Source of the DNA: Fibrobacter sp.
GTDB taxonomy: Bacteria; Fibrobacterota; Fibrobacteria; Fibrobacterales; Fibrobacteraceae
DNA: 64,000 nucleotides
NCBI GenBank assembly: GCA_017550445.1
Contig: JAFZOV010000046.1
Location: 35,040 to 99,039 of the forward strand
Direction of reading: 5' to 3'
Made by a program: the position numbers and the translations under genes. Within the stretch, counting starts at the first letter, position 1; each line of letters starts with the position of its first letter. Below the pieces are notes generated by a model. That model saw only the letters and a program-made list of their open reading frames with translations. It was not told the origin of the DNA and did not search any database. Positions 26,161 to 49,409 of this stretch are shown here, one piece after another.

Positions 26161-26246
26161 ATAGGATGTTAGGCTCAGCCAGATTTCCCGGAAATCTATG
26201 AATGCCTGAAACTTATATTTATCCAAAAGTTCAAAATTTTTACACT

Positions 26247-35856: not shown

Positions 35857-35880
35857 AAAAAGCCCTATTTTTAGGGTTTT
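35857..35880 (-). terminator. Rho-independent terminator after the Ton operon
   Basis: Read on the minus strand, CCCTA-AAAA-TAGGG is followed by CTTTTT, just after the stop codon of the TPR gene. It would end the long DUF3450-to-TPR transcript. Confidence 0.7.
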
Positions 35881-36923
35881 CAGTCGTTCTTCTCGAATTC
35901 CAAGATGTCGGCCTGGAGGGTGACATCATCGGGGAAGTATTGCTGGGCGATACGAAGCAGGCGGAGGGCTTCGTCGTCGCGCTTTTGGGCGTGGGCGTCG
36001 TAGGCCATGTTCTTGTAGCCGAAAACGGATTCGGCGTTGCCCTGCTTGGCGGCGAGTTCGTAAGCGGCTTCGGCGCGGTCGAGGAACTTGGCGTCGTAAG
36101 CCAGGTTCCCGAGGAAGATGGCGGCGTCGCTAAATTCGGGCTTGATTTGCGTCAGATTGTTGAGTACGTCCATGGCAACGAAGGGCTTGTTGTCTTCGGC
36201 GAGAACGTCGGCCAACTTGTACATGGTGGGAGCGTCATCGGGGCGGACGCCCAGAGCTTCGCGGTAGGCGCCGGCGCTTTCTTCGTACTGCTTATTCAGG
36301 CGGTACACATCGCCCAAGTAAACGAGAAAGTCGATTTCTTCGGGGTGGGCGGCATAGCCTTCGCGAATCACGGCAACGGCGCGATCAAAATCATCTACGG
36401 CAATATTCGCTTCGGAAAGCTGATAAACGATGCTGATATCTTCTTTGTCCAGCTGGTAGGCTTTTTCGATGGCACGCAATGCGCCGACCGCGTCGCCGGT
36501 TTTACTGTAGGCTTCGCCTAAGTAAAGCCAACCGGAAACATTTTCCGGTTCCAGTTTCAACGCGCGGTGATAGGCCGCCACGCATTCGGGATATTGGCGC
36601 AGGCGAAAATAGACGCTGGCCATGTTGAAGAGGGCCAGAGAAAACGCACCATTAGAGAAATCGATGGCCTTGCGGTAAGTGGCGGCCGCATTCGGCAAGT
36701 CATTCATCTGGTAATAACTGTTGGCGATGTTGAAACTGGTGGCGACGGGGTCGGCGCCGCGAGATTCCGCCTTATGGTAAAGGGTAATGGCCTGCTTAAA
36801 TTTGCCTTCGCGATAAAGCGCATTCGCACGTTCCATCAGGTCGTACGCGGACTGCGCGGCAAAACAAAAAACTGCAAGAAACAGCACAAACAGCAGACAA
36901 ATCTTTATTTTTTCATTATTCAT
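35880..36923 (-). CDS. TPR protein at the end of the Ton operon, 347 aa
   Basis: A signal peptide (IKICLLFVLFLAVFCFAAQSA) is followed by about eight tetratricopeptide repeats, for example ALYREGKFKQAITLYHKAESRG, PECVAAYHRALKLEPENVSGWLYLG and YEESAGAYREALGVRPDDA. It is probably periplasmic. In Vibrio TonB2-type loci the same gene order (DUF3450, TtpC, ExbB, ExbD, TonB, TPR) ends with such a TPR protein, so its role is likely in the assembly or function of that Ton complex. Two dispersed repeats separate it from tonB. Confidence 0.88.
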   Translation of the reverse strand: MNNEKIKICLLFVLFLAVFCFAAQSAYDLMERANALYREGKFKQAITLYHKAESRGADPVATSFNIANSYYQMNDLPNAAATYRKAIDFSNGAFSLALFNMASVYFRLRQYPECVAAYHRALKLEPENVSGWLYLGEAYSKTGDAVGALRAIEKAYQLDKEDISIVYQLSEANIAVDDFDRAVAVIREGYAAHPEEIDFLVYLGDVYRLNKQYEESAGAYREALGVRPDDAPTMYKLADVLAEDNKPFVAMDVLNNLTQIKPEFSDAAIFLGNLAYDAKFLDRAEAAYELAAKQGNAESVFGYKNMAYDAHAQKRDDEALRLLRIAQQYFPDDVTLQADILEFEKND

Positions 36924-36999: not shown

Positions 37000-37647
37000 C
37001 TAGTCCCTAAATTTCACTTCGAAGGGTTGTTCCATGCCGCAGAAGGGCACAGCCTTGCCCGCCTTTTCAGCCGGAGCAAAAGTCATGCGAGAAAGAGCAT
37101 CTTTACCGGCCTGCGCCAAGCCAGAACCTGCCGGAGTTTCTTCAAGCACCTTGATGTCGTAGACTCGCCCACCGGCATCCACGCAAAAACTCAGACGAAG
37201 CATCGCATCAATTTCACGATCGCGAATCTGCGGCGGCACCTGGAAATTGGGGAAAGCCCTGCTTTCAGGTTTCTTGTCCACATCGCCTTTTTCAACCGAA
37301 AGCGCACCGCCACGGAAATCCGCCACCATGTCTTCACTCACGGCAGCACCAGCATTACCCGAAGCCGCACCAAGGTTCATCGCAAAGCGCGGCCCCGCTT
37401 TGGGCGAACGCGAATTAGACTTCATACGATACGGCTTGCGAGCGGGCTTTTTCTTTTCGACCTTTTTCTCAACCTCATCCACTTTCTTGATGGCGATTTC
37501 GGCCTTATTGTACTTCTTTTCGTGAAAGACCTTGCCGCTCAAGAAAAGATTCGCCATCGTCACGGAGAATACGAGCAACATACTCGCGAGAATCGCCGCA
37601 AGCAAAATGCTAAAACGCTTGAACAATTTCTTAAAAATTCTCAACAT
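37000..37647 (-). CDS. tonB: TonB-family energy transducer, 215 aa
   Basis: One N-terminal transmembrane helix (about residues 13-37) is followed by a Lys/Glu/Pro-rich linker (VEKKVEKKKPARKPYR) and a C-terminal TonB domain (about 130-215) ending PFEVKFRD. The C-terminal domain has two Cys (LSFCVDAGG and VPFCGMEQ) that could form a disulfide. TonB carries proton-motive energy from ExbB/ExbD to outer-membrane receptors; the likely client is the receptor encoded at 43102-45597. It is preceded by exbD in the same transcript. Confidence 0.9.
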   Translation of the reverse strand: MLRIFKKLFKRFSILLAAILASMLLVFSVTMANLFLSGKVFHEKKYNKAEIAIKKVDEVEKKVEKKKPARKPYRMKSNSRSPKAGPRFAMNLGAASGNAGAAVSEDMVADFRGGALSVEKGDVDKKPESRAFPNFQVPPQIRDREIDAMLRLSFCVDAGGRVYDIKVLEETPAGSGLAQAGKDALSRMTFAPAEKAGKAVPFCGMEQPFEVKFRD

Positions 37648-37750: not shown

Positions 37751-38155
37751 TTAGTCTGCCTGAGCCGCGATAGAAACCTTTTTCACTCCAGCCAAATTGC
37801 ACATGTCAATCACCTGCACAAGTACACCTGTTTCGGCACCCTTGTCCGCAATCACCACAGCTTCGCGGTCAGGAGTTTTCGCCAACGACTGCTTCAAAAT
37901 ATCCTGCAAGCTCGCCAAATCCACCTGGCGTTCGTTCATGTGAATCGTGCCTTCGCGGGTAATGGCAATCAGCAGGTTTTCTTTTTCGAGCTGGCTCGCC
38001 GTCTGCGCCTGCGGCTTGGTCACATCCACACCCGTTTCGCGGGTAAACGAAGACGTCACCACAAAGAAAATGAGCAAAATGAACACGATGTCCATCAGCG
38101 GGCCCATTTCGATGCCCATATCCTTCTGCTTTCTTCTCGGCAAGTTAAATTCCAT
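37751..38155 (-). CDS. exbD: ExbD biopolymer transport protein, 134 aa
   Basis: ExbD is the small inner-membrane subunit of the Ton motor with one transmembrane helix and a periplasmic domain. The helix (about residues 17-40) has the key Asp in GPLMDIVFILLIFFVVTSS, equivalent to Asp25 of E. coli. The periplasmic part ends KKVSIAAQAD. Length and position after exbB are typical. Confidence 0.95.
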   Translation of the reverse strand: MEFNLPRRKQKDMGIEMGPLMDIVFILLIFFVVTSSFTRETGVDVTKPQAQTASQLEKENLLIAITREGTIHMNERQVDLASLQDILKQSLAKTPDREAVVIADKGAETGVLVQVIDMCNLAGVKKVSIAAQAD

Positions 38156-38211: not shown

Positions 38212-38889
38212 CTATGCCTTCTCCACGAAATAATTCTCTATCACAGTCGCGCCAAGTTCCATCTTCTGGCGCAAAATTTCCACGCGTTCATCTAGGCGCT
38301 GTTTCAAAAGAGTCAGCGGGAACGCCACCAAGAGTCCGCTCTGCGTCGAAATCAAAGCTTCCGAAATGCCATCGGCCATCAGCACCGGGTTCTGGTTACC
38401 GTACAGCGTAATCACTTCAAAGGTCGAGACCATGCCCGTCACGGTTCCAAGGAGCCCCAGCAGCGGCGCCGCAGAAGCCATCACCGACACAATGTGGTTT
38501 CCCTGTTCCATGTAGCGCACCGTTTTCATCATGCGTACCTGCATGTAGTCGCGGAATCCTTCAGGATTCTTTTCGGCCACATCTATCGCATAGCAAAGTT
38601 CGCGAGACAGAAGCCCACCGCGCTTGCGGAGTCTGCGTACCGCCTTTTCGACGCTTGGCGGCTCGCTATTCTTTTCGTATTCTTCGTTGCCGCCGTTCAA
38701 GTCAAGGCGCATTCGCTTGATGACCTTGTGAATGTCCGTGCGGAAAAAGTCGCTACCAATACGGAACCACGTCGAGAACAAGAAATAGAAGCCGATTACA
38801 CCCGCCAAGAGAATCGGGAGCATCACCACGCCACCGGCCTGGTACGTGTTCTGCAACGATTCAATGAATATGTAGTGAGTGTTTGTCAT
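38212..38889 (-). CDS. exbB: ExbB/MotA/TolQ proton channel protein, 225 aa
   Basis: This is the channel-forming subunit of the Ton motor in the inner membrane. Three transmembrane helices are predicted (about residues 18-38, 115-140, 165-190). The family signature ASAAPLLGLLGTVTGMVSTFEVI and GISEALISTQSGLLVAFPLTLL is complete. It lacks the long N-terminal extension of its neighbour and corresponds to ExbB2 of Vibrio TonB2 systems. It lies between the TtpC-like gene and exbD. Confidence 0.94.
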   Translation of the reverse strand: MTNTHYIFIESLQNTYQAGGVVMLPILLAGVIGFYFLFSTWFRIGSDFFRTDIHKVIKRMRLDLNGGNEEYEKNSEPPSVEKAVRRLRKRGGLLSRELCYAIDVAEKNPEGFRDYMQVRMMKTVRYMEQGNHIVSVMASAAPLLGLLGTVTGMVSTFEVITLYGNQNPVLMADGISEALISTQSGLLVAFPLTLLKQRLDERVEILRQKMELGATVIENYFVEKA

Positions 38890-38932: not shown

Positions 38933-40561
38933 TTACGATTCCTTCCCGAAAATTTTGTTCAACAGCGAGGTACTCTGCACGTACATTTCGCTGGTAACTT
39001 TTTCAATCTTTTCACTCAACAGGCCATGCAAAATCATCACCGGGATTGCAATCACAAGGCCCGTTTCTGTTGTCACCAGGGCTTCGGAAATACCGCCAGC
39101 AAGCACGCGTGCATCGTTCGTGCCAACTTCGGTAATCACGGTAAACAGCGTAATGATACCCGTCACCGTACCAAGCAAACCAAGCAGCGGCGCAATCGTT
39201 CCCATAGCAGCAAGCAAGCCCATGCGACGTTCCAATTTCGGCTGTTCACGCAGCAGCGCCTCTTGCAGAGAGCGTTCCGCATCTTCGCGCTTTTCACGGG
39301 CGCGGTTCAGCACAGCAAACAGCACCATCGAAAGGCTAGATTCCTTTTTGAGGCAAAGGTTCGCTGCATCTTCGTAGCGGGTCTCCTTCACCATCGCATT
39401 CAGCTTCTTGAGGAATCGGCGGCTCATGTGTCCGCGGAAGGTGAGCACCAAGAAACGTTCCAGGCAAAGGAGTAGCGCAAAAATCGCCACCAATGCGAGC
39501 GGGTACATCACGATGCCGCCCTTCTTGAAGAACGCCTTGAGTTCTTCGTCCCAGGTAAGCTCCTTGGTATCGGTAATCGAATTCTTGACAGCCTTGTTCT
39601 GCAGAACGTCCAGCGGCACCACGACAGACGCCGCACCCGTAGCAGAATCGCCAGCCACACCGGCCTGTACCACAGCCTGCTTAATGTTCGCAGCCATTTC
39701 CGGCGGAAGCGTTGCATTCCATTCAAAAATCTTGCCCTGCAAGGCTCCAGAACGCAGCAAAGCCTGCACATCGCCGTTATCCTGGGCAACTTCGCCAAGG
39801 AACACCGTGCCCAAGCGCAAACGGTTCACGTTCACATCGGGGCGGTTGCCCACCTGCGAAATTTCACGGCCATAAGACTGCGTATAAGTCAACTCATGAC
39901 GGAGCAGCAAGTCGTTCATGTAACCCTGCACAGCGCCAATGGTATTCGGATCTTTCTTGTCCGCTTCGCCAGCAGCCTGACGCAAACGCAACAGGCGACC
40001 GTTCATGCCCACCGGGTAATCGCCCATCACATCGCCAAGCGTCTTGTCAATGGAAAGTTTCACCTGCGTGTTCATGGCATCGTAAGCCGATTCTTCGGAC
40101 TGCGCCTTTTCTTCGGCATCGCTTGTCATGTTCTTGCTTGCCATGACTTCCTCGTTCACGCGGCCCAAATCCGTAGAGAGCTTGGAATAGCGGCCATCAA
40201 GTTCGCGTGAAGCAGTCTGATGTTCTTCGGTCAACTGGGATTCTGCGTAACGCTTGCGCCAATGTTCCGCTTCAAGCTTTTCCAAGGAATCCGCCTTCTG
40301 CAAGCGAATGCGGGTCAAAGCCTCCACTTCGCGCTGCAAGTTGCGAACTTCTACAGTCTGCAACGAATCCTTGATTCGCGCCTGGTCTTCGGCAGAAGCC
40401 TTACTTTCGCCATTAGACGACCACGGCCACGCAAATGCGGAAGATGCAAAAGCAAAAATCAATGCAACAAACAAACTGTAAGGCATGGACATCTTCGGCG
40501 GCACTTCGGCGAGCTCAGTGACCTTGCTCCGAATTCTTAATTCCGAATTCTGAATTAACAT
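38933..40561 (-). CDS. TtpC-like ExbB with periplasmic coiled-coil N-terminus, 542 aa
   Basis: The long N-terminal part (about residues 45-230) is a periplasmic coiled coil. The C-terminal part is an ExbB/TolQ channel with ALLREQPKLERRMGLLAAMG, APLLGLLGTVTGIITLFTVI and GISEALVTTETGLVIAIPVMIL. This is the architecture of TtpC of Vibrio TonB2 systems. Two starts are possible. The ATG at 40561 overlaps the DUF3450 stop (TAATG) and has GGGGGGA upstream, but then the first 23 residues are a translated dispersed repeat. The ATG at 40492 or 40486 begins directly at the signal peptide (MSMPYSLFVALIFAFASSAFA). The first is kept because its ribosome binding site is clear; the second may be a re-initiation point. 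Confidence 0.9.
   Translation of the reverse strand: MLIQNSELRIRSKVTELAEVPPKMSMPYSLFVALIFAFASSAFAWPWSSNGESKASAEDQARIKDSLQTVEVRNLQREVEALTRIRLQKADSLEKLEAEHWRKRYAESQLTEEHQTASRELDGRYSKLSTDLGRVNEEVMASKNMTSDAEEKAQSEESAYDAMNTQVKLSIDKTLGDVMGDYPVGMNGRLLRLRQAAGEADKKDPNTIGAVQGYMNDLLLRHELTYTQSYGREISQVGNRPDVNVNRLRLGTVFLGEVAQDNGDVQALLRSGALQGKIFEWNATLPPEMAANIKQAVVQAGVAGDSATGAASVVVPLDVLQNKAVKNSITDTKELTWDEELKAFFKKGGIVMYPLALVAIFALLLCLERFLVLTFRGHMSRRFLKKLNAMVKETRYEDAANLCLKKESSLSMVLFAVLNRAREKREDAERSLQEALLREQPKLERRMGLLAAMGTIAPLLGLLGTVTGIITLFTVITEVGTNDARVLAGGISEALVTTETGLVIAIPVMILHGLLSEKIEKVTSEMYVQSTSLLNKIFGKES
40502..40557. repeat. family E and family C repeats over the ttpC-like start
   Basis: GCACTTCGGCGAGCTCAGTG (family E) followed by CCGAATTCTTAATTCCGAA (family C) lies between the first ATG (40561) of the TtpC-like gene and its signal peptide. 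It keeps the frame open. Confidence 0.75.
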
Positions 40562-41397
40562 TACTTATCCCCCCTTGCCACAGAAAGGCTGACCGGCAAC
40601 TTCACGATCTGAGGCGGCTTTTTCGCCTGTTTCACCTCAATAGCGAGCTTCACGGCAGCGCGTTCTTCCAAATTCAACTCTTCGTTCCATTCATAGCTAA
40701 TCTTGTCGCCTTCGGACTTGCGCACCATAGAACCGAAAACGGTACCATTTTCGTCGCTATAAACCATCCACTGGTTACCGATGCGCAAAATCGAGGCATT
40801 AATCAGTTCGCCGTTCTTGCGGGTAAGCGGACTGTTGATAATTGCCACTTCGTCGCCGAACTTGGTTTCTTCGGCAATAAGCGACTTCAAGCGAGAAAAG
40901 CTTTCTTCTTCGCTGGCGTTGCCGCTTTCGATGTCTCGAGTGAGCGACTTGACGCGATCAAGCCTAGTTTCGCGTTCCCAAGGAATAGTCGATGCCACCT
41001 GAGCTTCCAGGCGCTTGCTGATGCCCGCCAGTTCTTCGCGCAACGCCTTGCGCTTGGCAGCCACATTGTCGCTGCGGTTCTTCGCACGGGCCTGCTTGTT
41101 GCGTTCTGTCTGAAGTTCACCCGCCACAGTCTTGATTTTGGCATTCAAGCTGTCAATTTCGCTGCGACGGCGTTCCGTATCAGCCTTATAGCGTTGCTGC
41201 AAGGCCTTGTAACGGGAATCATCCGCCTTGAGCATCGAATCGGTCGAGGCAATTTGACGGTTCAGCTTCTGGATTTCAGAATTCAGCTTGTCTTTTTCAA
41301 GCTTCAGGTCTCGAATTTCGGCATCCCGGTCGGCATAAGCAGCCACCGAGAACACCAAAACCAAAAGCGCCAAGGGCAATAATTTAAACTTATTCAT
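40561..41397 (-). CDS. DUF3450 periplasmic coiled-coil protein of the Ton operon, 278 aa
   Basis: The ATG at 41397 starts a signal peptide (MNKFKLLPLALLVLVFSVAAYA). The body is a long coiled coil (about residues 25-140) then a globular part with IINSPLTRKNGELINASILRIGNQW. This is the DUF3450 pattern. In Vibrio TonB2 loci a DUF3450 gene stands just upstream of ttpC, as here, although its mechanism is unknown. It is the first gene of the transcript and carries an ECF-like promoter at 41434-41465. Confidence 0.85.
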   Translation of the reverse strand: MNKFKLLPLALLVLVFSVAAYADRDAEIRDLKLEKDKLNSEIQKLNRQIASTDSMLKADDSRYKALQQRYKADTERRRSEIDSLNAKIKTVAGELQTERNKQARAKNRSDNVAAKRKALREELAGISKRLEAQVASTIPWERETRLDRVKSLTRDIESGNASEEESFSRLKSLIAEETKFGDEVAIINSPLTRKNGELINASILRIGNQWMVYSDENGTVFGSMVRKSEGDKISYEWNEELNLEERAAVKLAIEVKQAKKPPQIVKLPVSLSVARGDK

Positions 41398-41433: not shown

Positions 41434-41465
41434 AATGAAACACTTGAACCCAACAAAAGTGTCAC
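41434..41465 (-). promoter_or_regulatory. ECF-type promoter copy C, before the Ton motor operon
   Basis: In the gene direction: GTGACACTTT, 12 nt, GTGTTTCATT. The first box is identical and the second differs by two bases from copies A (49335-49366) and B (45650-45681); spacing is equal in all three. It lies 36 nt before the DUF3450 start codon, right after the stop of the lipoprotein gene. Confidence 0.75.
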
Positions 41466-41474
41466 CGCCTCACC

Positions 41475-43118
41475 TCATTTTTCCAAAGAGCTGGATTCTG
41501 GGCATTCCATGCGGCCCTTGTTTTCGGTACACCAGTTATCACAAATAGTCGGGTGATAACGGTTACAAACATTTTCCACCTCACGCAAGATAATACTCGA
41601 TTTCTGCTCTTTTAGGTAATAACGGCTCACCAATGCACTCCGGCACTGTTCCATATCCGGCCAATCACGGTCAGCACACCAAGTCCACAAATATTCCTTG
41701 CAGTAATTATCTTCCGGGTCTTCCATGCACAACTTATACAAGCCGTAGCAATCGGCAATCTTGTTGTTTTCAAAGTTAGACGCCACACAGTAACGTTTAA
41801 GACCATCGGCGTACGCCATAGACTTTGGGCCAGCACTAATCGTATCGGGCAAGAAGATAGACCACTTGGTGGTATCGAGCATCATGGCAGCCTTCACGTT
41901 GGAAGCATAGCATTCTTCGCTACTTCTGCTGTATACAGAATCACGATAACTTTCGTAAGCCGTACTATTCAGCGTCGCCAAATCATCGCTCCAAACGGAA
42001 ACATCTATAGCGGCACAGTAAACATCCTGGTAAAGCCTGCACCCTTTTGAATCCCAGCTGTCCGAAAGATCGCCATCGGCATTAAAGCAAGTATGGTGCG
42101 CAATGTGCTTCACGCTCACGCCCTCGCCGTTGACATGCAACAGCACTGTCGCCTTGGACATTCCGGTGAACACGCCCATGCCGTTTTCGATATTCGATTC
42201 GGGAATAATTCTTGAATCATTTACCGATTCCTTCACCTTGTCTATATAATTAATATAGGATTCATCCGTCGAATACAAGTCCACAGAGACATCGCCCAAG
42301 GGGAGCATCATGTTCATCAGGTAGGCCGTATCAAGCGCGTAGAAATCAGCAACCTTACGGTTCGAAGTAAAGCCCAAATTTTGAGTCTGTTCCAACGGAT
42401 CATGAATCGAAATGCCACGATAACCCTCTTCATCTTCGCTGGTAAAGCCCTTGAACATGTCGTTAATGGTCGTATTCTGCGATTCTGCATTGCTCATGTC
42501 GTAATTCATTACCGCAATCACCCCCCTCACAGAATGATCATAGTCCAATGCGCACTTCACGAATTCCATATCCATGGGGAATTCCAAGAAGTCTATTTCG
42601 AACCTTGGATTTTTCTCATCGAAAGCCACCCACTTGTAGTCGCCATTTTGCAGAGGAACATTCAAGCCCTTGACTTTTACCGCCGGCGGAATGGTCGCCT
42701 CTGCCTTGTAGCGGGATTTTGCCTTATGGCCCGAGCTGTCCCATTCAAAGTAGGCTTCCATGGCGTAAGACTCGCCTACAACGCCACGGAACATTCCCGA
42801 AAAACAATTCGGCTTATCGCTTCTAGAATAAAGGACATCCAACGTATCCTTTTCTTTGCCCTGATTCGTAATGAAGCGTCCCTTCACCGTCACATAGGCG
42901 CTGTCGTAAAAGGCAAAACTTTCGGCAGCCGTTTCATCCAGCTCATAGACCTTCGAAAAACAGATATTAGTAGCTTGATCGGAAGCGACGTAGCCATAAG
43001 TGTAAACACCCGTATAGACATCGCGATTTTCGGGATAATATTCCCAAGGGCCGTGAAAATCACAAGCCACAAGGAACAACACAAACAGAACGCACAGAAT
43101 TTTAGAAATAGTATTCAT
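41475..43118 (-). CDS. DUF4249-like lipoprotein paired with the TonB receptor, 547 aa
   Basis: The lipobox is LFLVACDFHG (Cys19), so it is a lipoprotein, probably at the outer membrane. The N-terminal half contains a pattern like DUF4249 (AEATIPPAVKVKGLNVPLQ, then a Tyr-rich beta region). That family is usually encoded next to a TonB receptor in Bacteroidota, in a SusD-like lid role. The C-terminal third is Cys-rich (about 12 Cys, e.g. CADRDWPDMEQCR and CNRYHPTICDNWC) and may be a separate disulfide-bonded domain. It overlaps the end of the receptor gene by 17 bp. Function is inferred from context. Confidence 0.72.
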   Translation of the reverse strand: MNTISKILCVLFVLFLVACDFHGPWEYYPENRDVYTGVYTYGYVASDQATNICFSKVYELDETAAESFAFYDSAYVTVKGRFITNQGKEKDTLDVLYSRSDKPNCFSGMFRGVVGESYAMEAYFEWDSSGHKAKSRYKAEATIPPAVKVKGLNVPLQNGDYKWVAFDEKNPRFEIDFLEFPMDMEFVKCALDYDHSVRGVIAVMNYDMSNAESQNTTINDMFKGFTSEDEEGYRGISIHDPLEQTQNLGFTSNRKVADFYALDTAYLMNMMLPLGDVSVDLYSTDESYINYIDKVKESVNDSRIIPESNIENGMGVFTGMSKATVLLHVNGEGVSVKHIAHHTCFNADGDLSDSWDSKGCRLYQDVYCAAIDVSVWSDDLATLNSTAYESYRDSVYSRSSEECYASNVKAAMMLDTTKWSIFLPDTISAGPKSMAYADGLKRYCVASNFENNKIADCYGLYKLCMEDPEDNYCKEYLWTWCADRDWPDMEQCRSALVSRYYLKEQKSSIILREVENVCNRYHPTICDNWCTENKGRMECPESSSLEK

Positions 43119-45597
43119 AGCTCAACATAATTGGTAAAAAGGGGAACTGAGTGATTTCGGTTTTCTCTGGCGGGTTCTTGCTCGTATCGTAGAAGGTAAA
43201 GAACATATTCTCATGGTCTGTCAAATTGATGATGGTCCAGCTGAAATTCCACTTATTTTCGCGACCGATATCGATGAGCTTGACATCAACGCGGAAGTAG
43301 TCCGTCTGGCGGGCGGCATTGCGGCTACCGGGCAGCACCACCACCTCGTCGCTATACTGCTGGTGTCCCATATCTTGCGACATGTAATAGCCTTTGTATT
43401 CGCTGATAGGCATGCCAGCCGAGTACTTGAGCATCACAGATGATCTAAAATAGCGACCTGCTTTCTCATGCTTTCGGCGAGAATTTTCATCACCGCTCCA
43501 ATTAATGCCTAAATCCATCTTTAAAGCGTAAGGCTGGTGCCAACTCGGGTAATAGGGCTTGGTACCGTCATCTGTTTTCATGACACTAATGCTCTGGCTC
43601 CAGTTAATACCGCCAAACCACCAGCCATTATCTTTGCGCAGAGAAAGTTCATAACCAAAGGAATAACCTTCTGCCGTTCCAAATCCGTCTGCCAGCACAA
43701 AGTCATCGGAAGTGGTTTCGTCGTTACTGTCAAGCACAGATACAAAAGTATTCAGGTTGCTTTGGGTCTTGTAGTAAACGCCCACGGTAGCATCGTAGTC
43801 TTCCATAATACCACGCTGGCTATATTCCGCAGCAAACAGCCAAGAAGAAGCCGGTTCGATATGCTTGCCCTTGGAGGTTGTCGTGGCCGGGTAATAGAAT
43901 TCGTTCAGAGTCTCCTGGTCAGTATACACAATGGAATTCAAATATTGCAAGTAGTAACCACCATAAAGTTCCACCGTCTTGTCGTCATCGACATTGATAG
44001 TGAACGATGCGCGAGGCTCTACGCCAAAGTGTTCTGCCGCGGTCTGATAGTTAAAGCGGAGGCCGTATTGCAATAAATAATCGGGAGTCAGTTTCCAGGC
44101 ATCCTGCAGATAACCCACATGATGGAAGGGCTTCTGGATATCCGCTATACTGATGGTAGACATCTGTTCTTGGTAACGTTCGTAGTCATATTCCAGTTCG
44201 TAACCCATGGTGAATGTATGGTTCGGAACGCCACGATAATTCACCCATTGCTTGCCAGCAAAGGTGTAAAGGAACATTTCGATAGACATGAGGTCGCTGA
44301 TACTCATGGTCTGGTAGAATTCACTGAAGGCAAGAGTCGCATTATAATCCCAGTCGCCATTAATTCGATGGCTAATACCGAGAGGAATCGCCACGTTGCC
44401 CCAGTCCATATAAAGCGGGTCAAAACTCAGGCGGTCCTTACCCACATAGAAGCTCAGTTTCATGCGGGTATCGTCAGTAAAGTTGTACATGAAGGTGCCC
44501 TGCACATCCGTAAATTCGTAGTCCAGGTTAAGGTCGATAATGTCGAGGGCATTCATCAAATCCAGCATGTAGCCGATATAAGTCGTACGGCCAGCCACCA
44601 CCCAGCGGGCAGGGCCCTGATGGCCTTCGGTGTGAACCTGGGCGGCAAAGGTACTAATCTTGATACTGGACTTGCTGAACCATTCGTTGACGGTATCCTG
44701 GCCACCGGCGCGGCCATCCATCTTGAGCACGGAGCTCAGGCGGTTACCGTACTGCGCCGGGAAACCGCTCTTGTAGAACTGCACATCGTCAATACCTTCC
44801 ACCAGGAATGTGCTGAAAAGTCCAAAGAAATGCACCGGAGAATAAACCACCGCGTTATCGAACAGGAACAGGTTCTGGTCGGCGGCGCCACCGCGCACGT
44901 AAATCTTGGAACTAAAATCGGAGCTAGCCACCACGCCCGGGAGCGCCTGAATGCTCTTGATGACATCTGCTTCGGCAAGGCTCGGCATACGCTTGATAGA
45001 CTTCGCCGACACCACAGATTCACCGGGCTTACGCTTGGGGCGACGGCGCAGTTGCACCACGACTTTCTTAAGTTCGGTGACCTTGGAGTTATCACCGCCG
45101 GCAAGGAGGTCATCGACATTCACATCTTTTTTCGCCGAATCACTCTCAACCGGTTTCGTCTCGGCAGAGTCATTCTTCGCAACCTGCGCAGCAGAATCTA
45201 CAGAAGGTTCCGAATTCCTAACTCCTAATTCCGAATTATTCGAGCTGTCATTCACAAACGCTTCGCCGAGCGTCTGCGAAAAACTGCGTTCCGAGCCCGA
45301 ATACACCAATTCGTAGCATTTTTCCTTTTCGGCACCCGAAGTATCGGAATTAGTAACGCAAACGTTCCAGAGGGTATCTTCGGGGAGAATCACGCTAAAA
45401 GGCGTGCCCACAGTGGTCTGCAGCGCTTCGCCGGACTCCAGGATTTCTACATTCAGCTTTTCGCCTGGCGCAAAGGAAGAATCCTGTACCACGCCGTTAA
45501 AAATAATCCCTGCAGGTGCAAGGGAATCTGGCACAGGTTCCTGCGCCATAGCAGCCAAAGCCACCAGTAAAACAAAAATTCCAAATAACTTTTTCAA
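43102..45597 (-). CDS. TonB-dependent outer-membrane receptor, about 831 aa
   Basis: No ATG precedes the signal peptide, so a TTG at 45597 is used (LKKLFGIFVLLVALAAMAQEP), with GAGAG about 6 nt upstream; 45600 is also possible. After an N-terminal beta domain come the plug domain (IKRMPSLAEADVIKSIQ, ALPGVVASSDFSSKIYVRGG, GFPAQYGNRLSSVLKM) and a large barrel ending LSYEYYF, with a terminal aromatic residue. The ligand is unknown. A dispersed family C repeat is translated in the linker before the plug (NNSELGVRNSEPSV). It shares a transcript with the following lipoprotein and has its own ECF-type promoter. Confidence 0.9.
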   Translation of the reverse strand: MKKLFGIFVLLVALAAMAQEPVPDSLAPAGIIFNGVVQDSSFAPGEKLNVEILESGEALQTTVGTPFSVILPEDTLWNVCVTNSDTSGAEKEKCYELVYSGSERSFSQTLGEAFVNDSSNNSELGVRNSEPSVDSAAQVAKNDSAETKPVESDSAKKDVNVDDLLAGGDNSKVTELKKVVVQLRRRPKRKPGESVVSAKSIKRMPSLAEADVIKSIQALPGVVASSDFSSKIYVRGGAADQNLFLFDNAVVYSPVHFFGLFSTFLVEGIDDVQFYKSGFPAQYGNRLSSVLKMDGRAGGQDTVNEWFSKSSIKISTFAAQVHTEGHQGPARWVVAGRTTYIGYMLDLMNALDIIDLNLDYEFTDVQGTFMYNFTDDTRMKLSFYVGKDRLSFDPLYMDWGNVAIPLGISHRINGDWDYNATLAFSEFYQTMSISDLMSIEMFLYTFAGKQWVNYRGVPNHTFTMGYELEYDYERYQEQMSTISIADIQKPFHHVGYLQDAWKLTPDYLLQYGLRFNYQTAAEHFGVEPRASFTINVDDDKTVELYGGYYLQYLNSIVYTDQETLNEFYYPATTTSKGKHIEPASSWLFAAEYSQRGIMEDYDATVGVYYKTQSNLNTFVSVLDSNDETTSDDFVLADGFGTAEGYSFGYELSLRKDNGWWFGGINWSQSISVMKTDDGTKPYYPSWHQPYALKMDLGINWSGDENSRRKHEKAGRYFRSSVMLKYSAGMPISEYKGYYMSQDMGHQQYSDEVVVLPGSRNAARQTDYFRVDVKLIDIGRENKWNFSWTIINLTDHENMFFTFYDTSKNPPEKTEITQFPFLPIMLSYEYYF
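45209..45238. repeat. family C repeat inside the TonB receptor gene
   Basis: CCGAATTCCTAACTCCTAA then TTCCGAATTA, translated in frame as SNNSELGVRNSEP. It sits in the flexible linker between the N-terminal domain and the plug. Confidence 0.75.
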
Positions 45598-45622
45598 CAA
45601 AAACTCTCTTCTCGTATGCAAA

Positions 45623-45652
45623 AATAGCAAATAGGTTTCCCTATTTGCTATT
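45623..45652 (-). terminator. 13-bp perfect hairpin terminator after the caspase gene
   Basis: The arms AATAGCAAATAGG (45623-45635) and CCTATTTGCTATT (45640-45652) pair perfectly around a 4-nt loop. On the minus strand the second arm ends in TATTTTTGC. It would stop transcripts from the caspase operon. It overlaps by 3 nt the last bases of promoter copy B. Confidence 0.72.
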
Positions 45653-45681
45653 GTAACACCTAAAGGAGTAAAAAGTGTCAC
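45650..45681 (-). promoter_or_regulatory. ECF-type promoter copy B, before the TonB receptor
   Basis: In the gene direction: GTGACACTTT, 12 nt, GTGTTACAAT. Both boxes are identical to copy A. It lies between the caspase gene and the receptor gene, with a short leader of about 45 nt to the receptor start. Confidence 0.78.
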
Positions 45682-45689
45682 TATTTTAT

Positions 45690-48023
45690 TTAAAATCTTC
45701 CGACGGTAATTCCAGAGTAGAAGCCAGGCCACCAGCGAGCTTGATGCTTTTTGCTACCAAAATCGTCGTGGTAATTACCCCAAGGTTTCGTCCAAAGCTC
45801 ATCGGCATCGCCAATCGAGGCTATATTCAGCGAGCCACCCACTGCAAGGCCAACTCCTGGGATCAGACGATGCACAAATCCTAAGCGCAAACGATGGTGA
45901 TGGTTCCAATCAATATCGTCGCTAAAGCCAACTCTTTCATAAGCATTCAAGTACATATATTCCAGTTCAAAGTGGTTACCGTACTTACCGAACTGCGTAC
46001 CGAAACCGACACCGCTTTCATAGTGATCATCGAAGTGCTTGAATTCCGAGCCCTTTTCAAAGGGGCGAGCCCATTCGATCGCCGTGTACAAATAAGCCGT
46101 ACCCAGATGGAGCGAAAGATCCAGCGAGCCCATTTCGTTCAGGGTCGTCGTTGCAGTCCACACACCGTTACCGACTACGTTGACAAAACCAATCGGGCTC
46201 TTATCGCATTCCAAGCAAACGTTCACAAAACCCACCTGACGCCCGGTCGCATGTCTTTCGACATTGACAAAGCCCACTTGCGCACCGCCTGTACCGGCAT
46301 TCACATTTACATAGCCCACCTGCGTATCAGAAGAGTCTATAACCGCATTAACAAAACCCACATGTACACCACCCGTCTTGTAAGCCGTATTGACAAAGCC
46401 CACCTGCACATCAGATGATGCCGCCACGTTCACAAAACCCACATGAACCTTGCTATATTCGGAATAGTTGACAAAGCCAATCTGCGTATAATCAACACTA
46501 TCTACACCCACATTGACATAACCAATCTGCGCAGCCTTAGACTTTTCTTCGGCAATATTGACAAGACCCATTTGCAAGCCGTCCACAGATTCGGCGTAAT
46601 TCACCAAACTCAGGACTTGAGCACCTTCAATCTTCTCGTTGGCAATGTTTGCAATGCCGGCTACCTGAATGCCATGTATTTCTTTCTTGGCAGAGTTGAC
46701 GAACAAGCTAAACTGGGAACCAATCATGTAATCCTTGGTACGTGTTGCCAAAAGGCCTAGCTGCACACCTTTACGCGGATTGTCTTCACGATCATAAATA
46801 TCAAATGTCGTACGTGAAGTTCCATAATGGTCGAGCGAATCCAGCGAACACATTACCGGATCCCCGGCTGCACAACTTCTATCTTGCTTAATTTCACCAC
46901 GGAGCGTCGTCTTTTCGGCAGTCACCACTGCGAACTGTTTGTTACCAAGGCGAGCGCGGTTATTGTCGTAAAGCGTAATCGAGGCTTCCTTGAATTCGGC
47001 AGGGCGTTCCAGGCGAACGCTGTACTTGCCGGCAGGGAACCCGAGGCTCATGGCGCGACCGGACTTCTTGTAAAGTTCAGCGACAAGTTCGCCATTTTCA
47101 TCGCGAATGAACAAGTGACCGTCTACATCTTCGTCCAAGTCGAGGCCTGCGCTCGTGCTGCGCAAATCCGTCATCACCACGTCACCGGTACCCGCCAAGT
47201 TCATGTCACGGCTCGGGTGCTGGGCTCCGCCCATCGTGGCTTCAGTCTTCTGCAAAGTTTCATTGAAAGCAAACTGATAAGCTTCGGACAAGGTCACCTT
47301 GCCGTCGCCACTCACATCGCCAGCGCCACGAAGGCCGCTCACCAGCGAATGCGTAAAGAAGGATCCCTTGAGCTTGTCACTTTCCTGGCTCGACTCATCT
47401 TGAGTGCTGCTGGTGATAAAGGCGTAGCCTTTCATGTCGCTGCTCTTGTCGACCATGAACGCCGGCACAGCGACACCGCCCTTCGCGCGGGTGATTGCAC
47501 CCGAGCCGCAAGCGTCAATCACGGCGATTTTTACATCGGCATGCAAGGCATCCACGCGCTTGCGGAATTCCTTCCAGCTGTAAATTTCTTCACCAAGGCG
47601 GAGCCCCTTTTCATCGGCATGACCACTGTAATACACCAGCACTTCTTCGCGGGAATTAGCATCGCCCTTCGCAGACTTCGATGCCTGCAGCTTTTTATCG
47701 AGGGCATCCAGTTGATTTTGCAAAGAGGCAACGCTGGGTTCCGTGACGCGATAGACATTCTGCTTGGGAACGCCACCCATCTGCGAAAGCACATTGGCGA
47801 ATGCGCGGGCATCGCTTTCGGCATAACGCAGCACCGGGCGGCCCTTACCGCCATTGTTCGCACTCACTGCAAACACGTAACGGTTTATCGCAATTTCGTC
47901 GGATTTCGTAGCGGCATGAGCCTTGCCCGCCACGGCAAATAGTGCAACGATACACACCAGGCAAAGAATTGCAGATCCCGACAAGAAATCGCAGAATAAT
48001 ACATTACCCAAAAACTTTTTCAT
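45690..48023 (-). CDS. secreted caspase-like protein with surface-repeat region, 777 aa
   Basis: A long signal peptide ends near KAHAATKSDE. The caspase-like (C14) domain spans about residues 45-290. Catalytic His is in VYYSGHADEKGL and Cys in IAVIDACGSGAITRAK; an EF-hand-like loop DVSGDGKVTLSE lies near the end. A beta-sandwich-like middle follows, then about a dozen short repeats of the type xQVGFVNV (about 495-650), similar to the LA_2272-type surface repeats known from Leptospira and other bacteria. The C-terminus looks like an outer-membrane beta-barrel ending SGITVGRF. Gene order sigma, anti-sigma, caspase suggests sigma-controlled expression. It could be a surface or periplasmic protease; substrate is unknown. 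Confidence 0.88.
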   Translation of the reverse strand: MKKFLGNVLFCDFLSGSAILCLVCIVALFAVAGKAHAATKSDEIAINRYVFAVSANNGGKGRPVLRYAESDARAFANVLSQMGGVPKQNVYRVTEPSVASLQNQLDALDKKLQASKSAKGDANSREEVLVYYSGHADEKGLRLGEEIYSWKEFRKRVDALHADVKIAVIDACGSGAITRAKGGVAVPAFMVDKSSDMKGYAFITSSTQDESSQESDKLKGSFFTHSLVSGLRGAGDVSGDGKVTLSEAYQFAFNETLQKTEATMGGAQHPSRDMNLAGTGDVVMTDLRSTSAGLDLDEDVDGHLFIRDENGELVAELYKKSGRAMSLGFPAGKYSVRLERPAEFKEASITLYDNNRARLGNKQFAVVTAEKTTLRGEIKQDRSCAAGDPVMCSLDSLDHYGTSRTTFDIYDREDNPRKGVQLGLLATRTKDYMIGSQFSLFVNSAKKEIHGIQVAGIANIANEKIEGAQVLSLVNYAESVDGLQMGLVNIAEEKSKAAQIGYVNVGVDSVDYTQIGFVNYSEYSKVHVGFVNVAASSDVQVGFVNTAYKTGGVHVGFVNAVIDSSDTQVGYVNVNAGTGGAQVGFVNVERHATGRQVGFVNVCLECDKSPIGFVNVVGNGVWTATTTLNEMGSLDLSLHLGTAYLYTAIEWARPFEKGSEFKHFDDHYESGVGFGTQFGKYGNHFELEYMYLNAYERVGFSDDIDWNHHHRLRLGFVHRLIPGVGLAVGGSLNIASIGDADELWTKPWGNYHDDFGSKKHQARWWPGFYSGITVGRF

Positions 48024-48033
48024 TGTTACCCCC

Positions 48034-48831
48034 TTACTTTTCCACCTTGCGAAGAGTAAACGAAACCGTTTCTACTCCAGCCTGCTTCAAACTCTTATCG
48101 AAATCATCCACATTGATTGCAAAAGAATTCTGCGAGGTCAGCAAAAAGAACTTTTCAAACTTCGGCGCATTGTCGAGCTTGTAGGCGAACGGAAGCGTCG
48201 TCATCTTGCCCGGCTCCAGCTCAATGGCGTTATTACCGTCGCCCATGTGCATGGTCACAGTACCATTGCCGTCCATGCTAAAGAGCATGCCGAAGCATTT
48301 CTGCGGAACACGATAACGCAGCTGGATTTCGTCACCTTCGGAAGCATCGGCCAGATTCGCCATTTGCACGGCGCTGTCACCCGTCTTTTTCCAGACTTCC
48401 AACGATGCGGACATTCCCTTGATGCGGGTACCATTGTCCACGTCGGCCATGGCAACTTCCATCGAGGCATTTTGACTGTCGAAGGTTTCCACATTGCGGT
48501 TCAAAAGCACCATCGAGAACACGCCAAGCGCAATCACCAGCGCCGCAGCAACCTTCAGCCACAAGATATTGCGACCGGCATCTACGTCATTGCGAGGAGC
48601 GTCAGCGATGTGGCAATCCATGCCTTCGGCAGCCTCGATGCGATCTTCAAGCACCGCAAACGGGTTCTCCGCCAAGAAACGTTTACCCTGTTCGCGCATT
48701 TCGCGCACACGGGCGGCAAAAATTTCATCGTTCAGTTCACGTTCCTGGAATTCGCGCATTTCTTTTTGGGACAGTTCCCCGAGCAAAAAGCGTTCCAGTT
48801 TGAAATCGGAAATTTTGTTGACAGCAGTCAT
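48034..48831 (-). CDS. membrane-spanning anti-sigma factor, 265 aa
   Basis: The start overlaps the sigma-factor stop by 4 nt (ATGA), the classical coupling of sigma and anti-sigma genes. The N-terminal about 65 residues are cytoplasmic and helical (DFKLERFLLGELSQKEM). One transmembrane helix (about 89-110) and a periplasmic beta-rich domain (about 115-265) follow. No zinc-binding H-x3-C-x2-C site is present, so the call rests on topology and context. A family A repeat is translated in frame just before the helix (residues 71-83). It probably holds the sigma factor until an envelope signal releases it. Confidence 0.75.
   Translation of the reverse strand: MTAVNKISDFKLERFLLGELSQKEMREFQERELNDEIFAARVREMREQGKRFLAENPFAVLEDRIEAAEGMDCHIADAPRNDVDAGRNILWLKVAAALVIALGVFSMVLLNRNVETFDSQNASMEVAMADVDNGTRIKGMSASLEVWKKTGDSAVQMANLADASEGDEIQLRYRVPQKCFGMLFSMDGNGTVTMHMGDGNNAIELEPGKMTTLPFAYKLDNAPKFEKFFLLTSQNSFAINVDDFDKSLKQAGVETVSFTLRKVEK
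48585..48619. repeat. family A repeat inside the anti-sigma gene
   Basis: GGATTGCCACATCGCTGACG then CTCCTCGCAATGACG, encoding MDCHIADAPRNDV. The ends match the intergenic copies of family A. Confidence 0.8.
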
Positions 48832-49331
48832 CTTTCAACCTCCAGATTCTTGATTCTGGCTTGCAGGGTACGCAAACGCTTGCGCACGCCGCTCACCGAA
48901 AGTCCAACGGTTTCAGCAGTTTCTTCCAGAGTCATGCCGTCTACATAATGGAGGGTGGCAATTGTCCGGGTCGATTCCTGCTCCTTAGAAAAAATCTTAG
49001 CCAAAAGCCCCCTGGCCTCATAACCGTCATCTTCTTCGGCACAGGCAATCGTGAGCAGCATTTCGCTGGAATCCACATCTAGCCCGTGGCGCTTCTTGTC
49101 GCGGATACGATTCAGGCAAAGCCTCGTCGCCGTATTCCACAGCAAGCTTGACGGTTGCGACAAATCCAGGAAATCTACACGTTCGTACACGCGCAAAAAT
49201 ACGTTTTGCACCATGTCCTTCGCTTCGGCATCGTCCTTGAGCAAAAACACACAGCGTCTGAAAACCATCGGGGCGTAAGCCTCGTACAGTTTCGAAAATG
49301 CCATGCGGTCAAAGAGATTTTTCCCATTCAT
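48828..49331 (-). CDS. ECF-family RNA polymerase sigma factor, 167 aa
   Basis: Region 2 is visible as FSKLYEAYAPMVFRRCVFLL and AKDMVQNVFLRVYERVDFL (about residues 10-60), and region 4 as TLHYVDGMTLEETAETVGLS and VSGVRKRLRTLQARIKNL (about 120-165). Regions 1 and 3 are missing, as in ECF sigma factors. The start used is at 49331, only 3 nt after the -10-like box of its own promoter. An internal ATG at 49304 (MAFSKLYEAY) would leave a normal leader and is a good alternative. It probably recognises the three promoters listed here, including its own. Confidence 0.92.
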   Translation of the reverse strand: MNGKNLFDRMAFSKLYEAYAPMVFRRCVFLLKDDAEAKDMVQNVFLRVYERVDFLDLSQPSSLLWNTATRLCLNRIRDKKRHGLDVDSSEMLLTIACAEEDDGYEARGLLAKIFSKEQESTRTIATLHYVDGMTLEETAETVGLSVSGVRKRLRTLQARIKNLEVER

Positions 49332-49334
49332 ACC

Positions 49335-49366
49335 ATTGTAACACTAGAGGATGTTGAAAGTGTCAC
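49335..49366 (-). promoter_or_regulatory. ECF-type promoter copy A, before the sigma factor gene
   Basis: In the gene direction: GTGACACTTT, 12 nt, GTGTTACAAT, ending 3 nt before the annotated start codon. The GTGACA to GTGTTA spacing is 16 nt, normal for ECF promoters. Identical boxes lie before the TonB receptor (copy B). Confidence 0.78.
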
Positions 49367-49373
49367 CGCAAAT

Positions 49374-49409
49374 TTAAAAAAAAAGAGCCCCCCGACCTAG
49401 TCGGGGGCC
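49374..49409 (-). terminator. Rho-independent terminator after the FKBP gene
   Basis: Read on the minus strand, GCCCCCGAC-TAG-GTCGGGGG is followed by GCTCTTTTTTTTTT. It separates the FKBP gene from the sigma-factor promoter A. Confidence 0.88.

Follow-up and report, generated by a model that had tools for sequence, protein, structure and literature searches.

Which regulatory logic would join an ECF sigma factor, an exported caspase, a TonB-dependent receptor and a TonB motor in one bacterium? The question is raised by a stretch of Fibrobacter DNA of 64,000 nucleotides (in the following, the window), in which one promoter-like motif stands before three transcription units. In these gut bacteria, an envelope caspase, an import receptor and the receptor's own motor apparently fall under a single sigma factor. 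To our knowledge, the function of bacterial caspases is largely open. The literature searched, which was available in part and leaves most subscription journals outside its coverage, yielded no ECF sigma factor joined to a caspase in Fibrobacter and no sigma-caspase-receptor-motor combination, each part of which is of known kind; likewise, the part of it on Fibrobacter yielded no described ECF regulon in this group. The features of the locus are the following:

49389 to 49407, minus strand: terminator-like hairpin (consensus match) between the upstream FKBP-type gene and the sigma promoter
49335 to 49366, minus strand: motif copy 1, proposed ECF promoter of the sigma-anti-sigma-caspase operon
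48828 to 49331, minus strand: ECF sigma factor, 167 aa (Sigma70_r2 and Sigma70_r4_2 in Pfam; TIGR02937 above cut-off in NCBIfam)
48034 to 48831, minus strand: putative anti-sigma factor, 265 aa, with N-terminal helices, a membrane helix (89-110) and a DUF4384-like beta domain (model pLDDT 82)
45690 to 48023, minus strand: exported caspase-fold protease, 777 aa, His135/Cys172, with LA_2272-type repeats and a barrel-like C-terminus (Peptidase_C14 in Pfam)
45650 to 45681, minus strand: motif copy 2, proposed promoter of the receptor-lipoprotein unit
45626 to 45649, minus strand: inverted repeat AGCAAATAGG-GAAA-CCTATTTGCT, followed by TATTTTT, directly after motif copy 2
43102 to 45597, minus strand: TonB-dependent receptor, 831 aa, TTG start (Plug in Pfam)
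41475 to 43118, minus strand: DUF4249-like lipoprotein, 547 aa (PF14054 at 4.5e-5, below cut-off with 23.6 vs 28.5 bits)
41434 to 41465, minus strand: motif copy 3, proposed promoter of the TonB motor operon
40561 to 41397, minus strand: TtpB-like DUF3450 protein (PF11932)
38933 to 40561, minus strand: TtpC-like MotA/ExbB protein (PF01618), its true start probably further downstream
38212 to 38889, minus strand: ExbB (PF01618)
37751 to 38155, minus strand: ExbD (PF02472)
37000 to 37647, minus strand: TonB (TonB_C just below cut-off, 23.7 vs 24.6 bits)
35880 to 36923, minus strand: TtpD-like TPR protein (TPR in Pfam), last gene of the motor operon

The motif, GTGACACTTT-N12-GTGTTACAAT, is found exactly at 49335-49366 and 45650-45681 and with two mismatches at 41434-41465, always on the minus strand and directly 5' of a transcription unit (sigma ATG at 49331, receptor TTG at 45597, DUF3450 ATG at 41397). 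A preliminary description had reported these three copies and their placement; both are borne out, and its gene calls agree with ours. The 64 kb contain no further match with up to three mismatches, and 100 shuffles of the window gave none at all, the number expected by chance being 0. A relaxed pattern that tolerates three mismatches adds a fourth site at 26240; as 1.5 chance matches are expected for it, this site was left out of all counts. Scans for other signals returned 21 terminator-like consensus sites (18.3 expected in the region scanned) and 13 sigma-70 sites (11.9 expected), and no Rfam match at the gathering score between 35000 and 52000.

The same arrangement recurs in relatives. 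A search with the caspase returned 74 loci, whose record titles place every one in Fibrobacter, Fibrobacterales, Fibrimonadales, Chitinispirillia or a similar group. At least 16 of the 20 box positions of the window consensus were found upstream of 49 of 62 sigma, 23 of 29 receptor and 15 of 20 DUF3450 genes. This score was reached by none of the genes inside operons (0/64 anti-sigma, 0/74 caspase, 0/18 exbB, 0/17 exbD), by one of 24 lipoprotein genes and by no shuffled upstream region. Most of the divergent sigma loci score lower, as do some receptor and DUF3450 genes; a convincing site is absent before the receptor gene in L015, L017 and L046, and before the DUF3450 gene in L007, L009, L037 and L042.

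For a genome-wide survey we used the strict pattern GTRACANNTT-N12-GTGTTNNAW. In 12 relatives it gave 22 matches in 9 genomes, with none for the reversed pattern, and in 111 genomes of the family 223 matches in 87, with a single one for the reversed control. All 223 were classified by their downstream gene, either from the DNA of the locus or through an identical 31-mer in such a locus. They precede DUF3450 genes (60), receptor genes (58), sigma genes (46), flavin reductase genes (31), caspase genes (8), DUF4249 genes (8) and other genes (8); for four, no open reading frame of 70 aa lies in the next 160 nt, and in three of these cases the contig ends after about 100 bases. The five core gene types, i.e. 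sigma, caspase, receptor, DUF4249 and DUF3450, thus account for 180 of the 223 matches in the 87 genomes. The preliminary description had proposed one promoter type with these targets and had named a scatter of the motif without relation to genes as what would speak against it. Such a scatter did not appear in the relatives, and the proposal is strongly supported by the comparison, both by the 180 matches at core genes and by the co-occurrence of the motif with the sigma gene.

This co-occurrence holds throughout the phylum. At a threshold of E 1e-25, the sigma gene has one match in each of 90 of the 111 family genomes, and 105 of 167 phylum genomes are matched; the strict motif is present in 100 of the 167 (control 2). 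Counted as both, sigma only, motif only and neither, the genomes divide into 79/11/8/13 within the family (p 7e-6; one sigma-negative genome assigned by elimination), 12/3/1/40 outside it (p 1e-8) and 91/14/9/53 in the phylum (p 4e-21), all three p values being uncorrected for kinship and for gaps in metagenome-assembled genomes. Some of the sigma-only genomes carry a form of the motif outside the strict pattern (e.g. L024, L042). The motif also follows its genes when they are separated: G011 has the sigma-anti-sigma pair on one contig and the caspase on another, both with the motif, the copy of the sigma pair in relaxed form. In G136, one of five matches precedes a sigma gene; two others precede genes similar to a receptor (26%) and to ExbB (28%), and the last two precede unidentified genes. 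G123 is an exception, with four strict matches and no sigma match at 1e-25. Its motif-like sites (L267-L269) stand before three exported-looking proteins, two of them similar, and one caspase; the near identity of three of the four sites may reflect a repeat.

The motif, its targets, its co-inheritance with the sigma gene and its anatomy are established by the sequence comparison; that this sigma factor recognises the motif we infer, as we do the signal, the imported substance and the role of the caspase. The best reading, and in our judgement a highly probable one, is a small, dedicated and self-activating ECF-sigma regulon, which on the comparative evidence is real, dedicated and old. The membrane-bound anti-sigma factor would hold the sigma factor until some periplasmic or outer-membrane event releases it. 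The freed sigma factor would recognise GTRACACTTT-N12-GTGTTNNAW and turn on its own operon, including the exported caspase, from a leaderless or nearly leaderless mRNA. Its further targets would be the TonB receptor and the DUF4249 protein paired with it, the motor of six genes (TtpB-TtpC-ExbB-ExbD-TonB-TtpD) and, in many relatives, flavin reductases of the CX2CX2C kind. The link between the anti-sigma factor and the caspase through DUF4384, the leaderless start of the sigma gene and the flavin reductase arm, all proposed from sequence, are new relative to the preliminary description.

The two regulators fit the general scheme of ECF sigma/membrane anti-sigma pairs. The sigma factor possesses only regions 2 and 4 (Sigma70_r2 at 15-81 and Sigma70_r4_2 at 122-154 of 167 aa), its gene overlaps by 4 bases with a gene for a protein with one membrane helix (89-110 in the predicted structure), and its own motif lies upstream. 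Unlike in such pairs, the targets here are a caspase, a receptor and a private motor, the sensor domain is DUF4384-like, and only 3 nt separate the motif from the start codon. For the anti-sigma protein, Pfam gives no match at E 0.01, and the function of this protein can only be called putative, because the NCBIfam model 'antisigma' matches it at 4e-8, far below its cut-off.

In its beta domain, DUF4384 is detected at E 0.1 in 22 of the 35 relatives that were aligned (from 64 loci), the best at 1.2e-5, and the window protein itself reaches E 0.011, below cut-off. A fold search gave two matches below E 0.001, both to generic beta-sandwiches with low TM-scores, and in a homolog search with the alignment, Fibrobacter is the sole organism named among the matches listed (120 of 1396). 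In 12 selected genomes of the phylum, DUF4384 has 10 matches in 6 genomes, nine of them beside a caspase and eight beside a sigma gene. The relaxed motif precedes one of these eight sigma genes (L295); for L300, one of the seven without it, no start codon could serve as anchor. These loci (L293-L300) are divergent sigma/DUF4384 anti-sigma/caspase operons elsewhere in the phylum, mostly without the motif, and several show other shared-looking strings before the sigma gene, such as GTAAC or CGTCTTA.

The caspase gene begins 10 bases 3' of the anti-sigma stop codon. Its product has the characteristics of C14 peptidases and orthocaspases: the model adopts a caspase fold across residues 43-280 (a VIA re-examination covered mainly residues 40-274), and the His-Cys pair is present in all 38 aligned sequences, taken from the 74 loci. 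C14 has one match in each of seven relatives and two in an eighth. The C-terminus has weak Foldseek matches to NspA, OprF and OmpA (E 0.002-0.02), in a model whose low pTM of 0.43 makes both the repeat region and the barrel tentative. A domain that lies N-terminal to such an outer-membrane barrel would be located in the periplasm. Because the caspase domain precedes the barrel-like C-terminus, it is therefore probably periplasmic according to the model and not surface-exposed, which renders the earlier designation as a surface caspase doubtful. An anti-phage defence system was rejected as an explanation: the sigma factor, anti-sigma factor, caspase, receptor and lipoprotein gave no PADLOC match at E 0.01.

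Bacterial C14 caspases share with this protein the fold, the His-Cys pair and an association with DUF4384, which, in the available text of two studies, is found on caspases of cyanobacteria and alphaproteobacteria (PMC7475262, PMC6426788). Unlike these, the Fibrobacter caspase is exported, bears repeats and a putative barrel, and is apparently under ECF control, and the DUF4384-like domain resides on the anti-sigma factor instead. As a domain fused to caspases elsewhere is found here on the neighbouring anti-sigma factor, this arrangement suggests that the two proteins meet each other. It is conceivable, albeit doubtful, that the caspase is part of the signal relay, anchored in the outer membrane and facing the periplasm, where it would either cut the DUF4384-like domain of the anti-sigma factor or be held by it. 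If it cuts, caspases would join the proteases of envelope signalling. If such a relay exists, the caspase would be the site-1 protease of an ECF pathway, amplifying its own synthesis and switching on import, and the sigma/DUF4384 anti-sigma/caspase operon, with several divergent copies across the phylum, would represent a general caspase signalling module. In any case, the regulon that contains the caspase is compact and old, its promoter is defined, and it comprises a sigma factor and an anti-sigma factor besides three or four outputs; since the genus also has cultured strains, the role of the caspase becomes testable.

The remaining genes point to import. The receptor gene, starting at TTG 45597, overlaps the lipoprotein gene by 17 bases, and a comparable pairing of a receptor gene with an adjoining DUF4249 gene is seen in BT2172-BT2173, for which the available text of PMC11003636 does not mention ECF regulation. 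The motor operon holds six genes in the order ttpB-ttpC-exbB-exbD-tonB-ttpD, TonB_C being sub-threshold. This corresponds to Vibrio TonB2/TonB3, which, as far as the available text goes, have the same six kinds of protein in identical order, TtpB2 being a DUF3450 protein and TtpD2 a TPR protein of TonB2 (PMC6957404). The same source gives a putative Fur box for tonB2, whereas an ECF motif precedes the Fibrobacter operon. In eight relatives we found three to six ExbD-type matches each, some of them fragments, and one to six plug-type matches; by this count, the motor is therefore one of several TonB/Tol-type systems in these organisms.

This resemblance raises the possibility of a usual iron or haem acquisition regulon, with the caspase as a passenger or helper. 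The six families of the motor and their order are those of Vibrio TonB2, which is induced by iron limitation according to the available text of PMC6957404, and the flavin reductases could reduce imported iron. We nevertheless regard this explanation as rather unlikely. No inner-membrane importer is found among the genes directly after the 223 matches, of which only the first gene was classified, and the receptor shows no STN domain up to E 1, its matches being Plug and two at chance level. Furthermore, caspase genes unlinked from the sigma gene retain the motif (8 strict matches); as the caspase keeps it even when standing alone, it does not behave like a passenger. Among the closest known systems, FecI-FecR-FecA cell-surface signalling also unites an ECF sigma factor, an anti-sigma factor and a TonB receptor in one regulon, but its counterparts here are a receptor without STN and an anti-sigma factor without a FecR match (FecR is absent among the 8 families that match any of the 35 aligned members at E 0.1).

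By sequence, the flavin reductases form a further arm of the regulon in many relatives. They follow 31 of the 223 strict matches, belong to two families of 20 and 11 members, and all 31 contain CX2CX2CX3-10C, which we take to be the cysteine pattern of the iron-sulfur flavoproteins with which anaerobes reduce oxygen or peroxide. FMN_red (Pfam) was found in all four of the 31 that were submitted. Six genomes (G036, G040, G045, G084, G086, G092) have the reductase site on the strand of the sigma gene, about 0.7 kb upstream of it; other reductases behind the motif are found at L092, L096, L107, L115, L117, L118, L122, L125 and elsewhere. The eight other targets comprise what we take to be an HXXEE-like membrane protein in three genomes (L086, L136, G086:C33:15636), presumably a YbjQ-like protein in one case, a DUF2141 protein, an unidentified protein, and LiaF-like envelope-stress genes in two genomes (L143 in G063 and G110:C8:5753; Pfam on one). 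In a Chitinispirillia genome (L075, G012), a DUF2807 protein stands behind the motif.

Such targets would suit a response to envelope or redox damage, in which the caspase clears damaged envelope proteins, the reductases handle oxidants and the receptor imports what repair requires. Both the cysteine pattern, shared by every reductase, and the LiaF-like genes agree with it. However, the reductases are missing from the matches of most genomes, the 31 genes being spread over about 25 of the 87 (20 and 11 genomes for the two families), and we consider a damage response rather unlikely as well.

In the window, 3 nt separate the end of the motif from the sigma start codon; with the first base of that codon numbered +1, the first box starts at -35. 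In 57 of 62 sigma-matched related loci, GTGTT stands exactly 13 nt 5' of an in-frame start codon; the five others are L008, L065, L067, L069 and L070, of which L008 and L070 have both boxes nearby. Because the motif ends so close to the start codon, the sigma mRNA is presumably leaderless, or its leader does not exceed about 3 nt. An alignment of 45 dereplicated sites, including the window, displays a conserved A/T-rich tract around -51, then GGTRACACTTTT, then GTGTT(A/T)NA, running into the start codon, with little conservation upstream of the tract.

It is very improbable that the motif is instead an operator with arms GTRACAC and GTGTTAC at a distance of 22 bp, bound by a dimeric transcription factor for which the sigma gene is merely one target. 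The boxes do form a partial inverted repeat in general, and a perfect one where the first reads GTAACAC and the second GTGTTAC. Their conservation is asymmetric, however: in the first arm, 42 and 43 of the 45 sites retain the outer G and T; the partner C and A are retained in 24 and 26, and the A after the core of the second arm in all 45. Moreover, the closeness of the site to the start codon (3 nt) and the A/T-rich tract preceding it are what -35/-10 boxes would show, and the motif co-occurs with the sigma gene. A chance repeat is rejected by the shuffles, the reversed controls and the operon-internal genes without the motif, and a housekeeping promoter by the 0-5 strict matches per genome over 167 genomes. 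The motif provides a promoter signature for sigma-factor biology in Fibrobacterota.

Lastly, the receptor leader has a feature of its own. A stem of 8-11 bp is found in 35 of 59 receptor leaders (the 58 matches and the window), mostly with TATTTTT next to it. Some of the stems contain G-T pairs, which suit an RNA hairpin more than a palindrome bound by protein, and it is possible that the stem-loop acts as a 5' mRNA hairpin or attenuator. Its interpretation as a terminator of the caspase transcript was rejected, since it stays with the receptor gene where this is located elsewhere (L004, L010, L019, L023). In strict form the hairpin occurs in 27 of the 111 genomes, with one copy each and never more than one per genome, and in 24 of these genomes its start lies 2 nt beyond a strict motif match. 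Nineteen hairpins that seemed to lie away from the motif proved, by their flanks, to be the opposite strand of these same receptor-leader inverted repeats.
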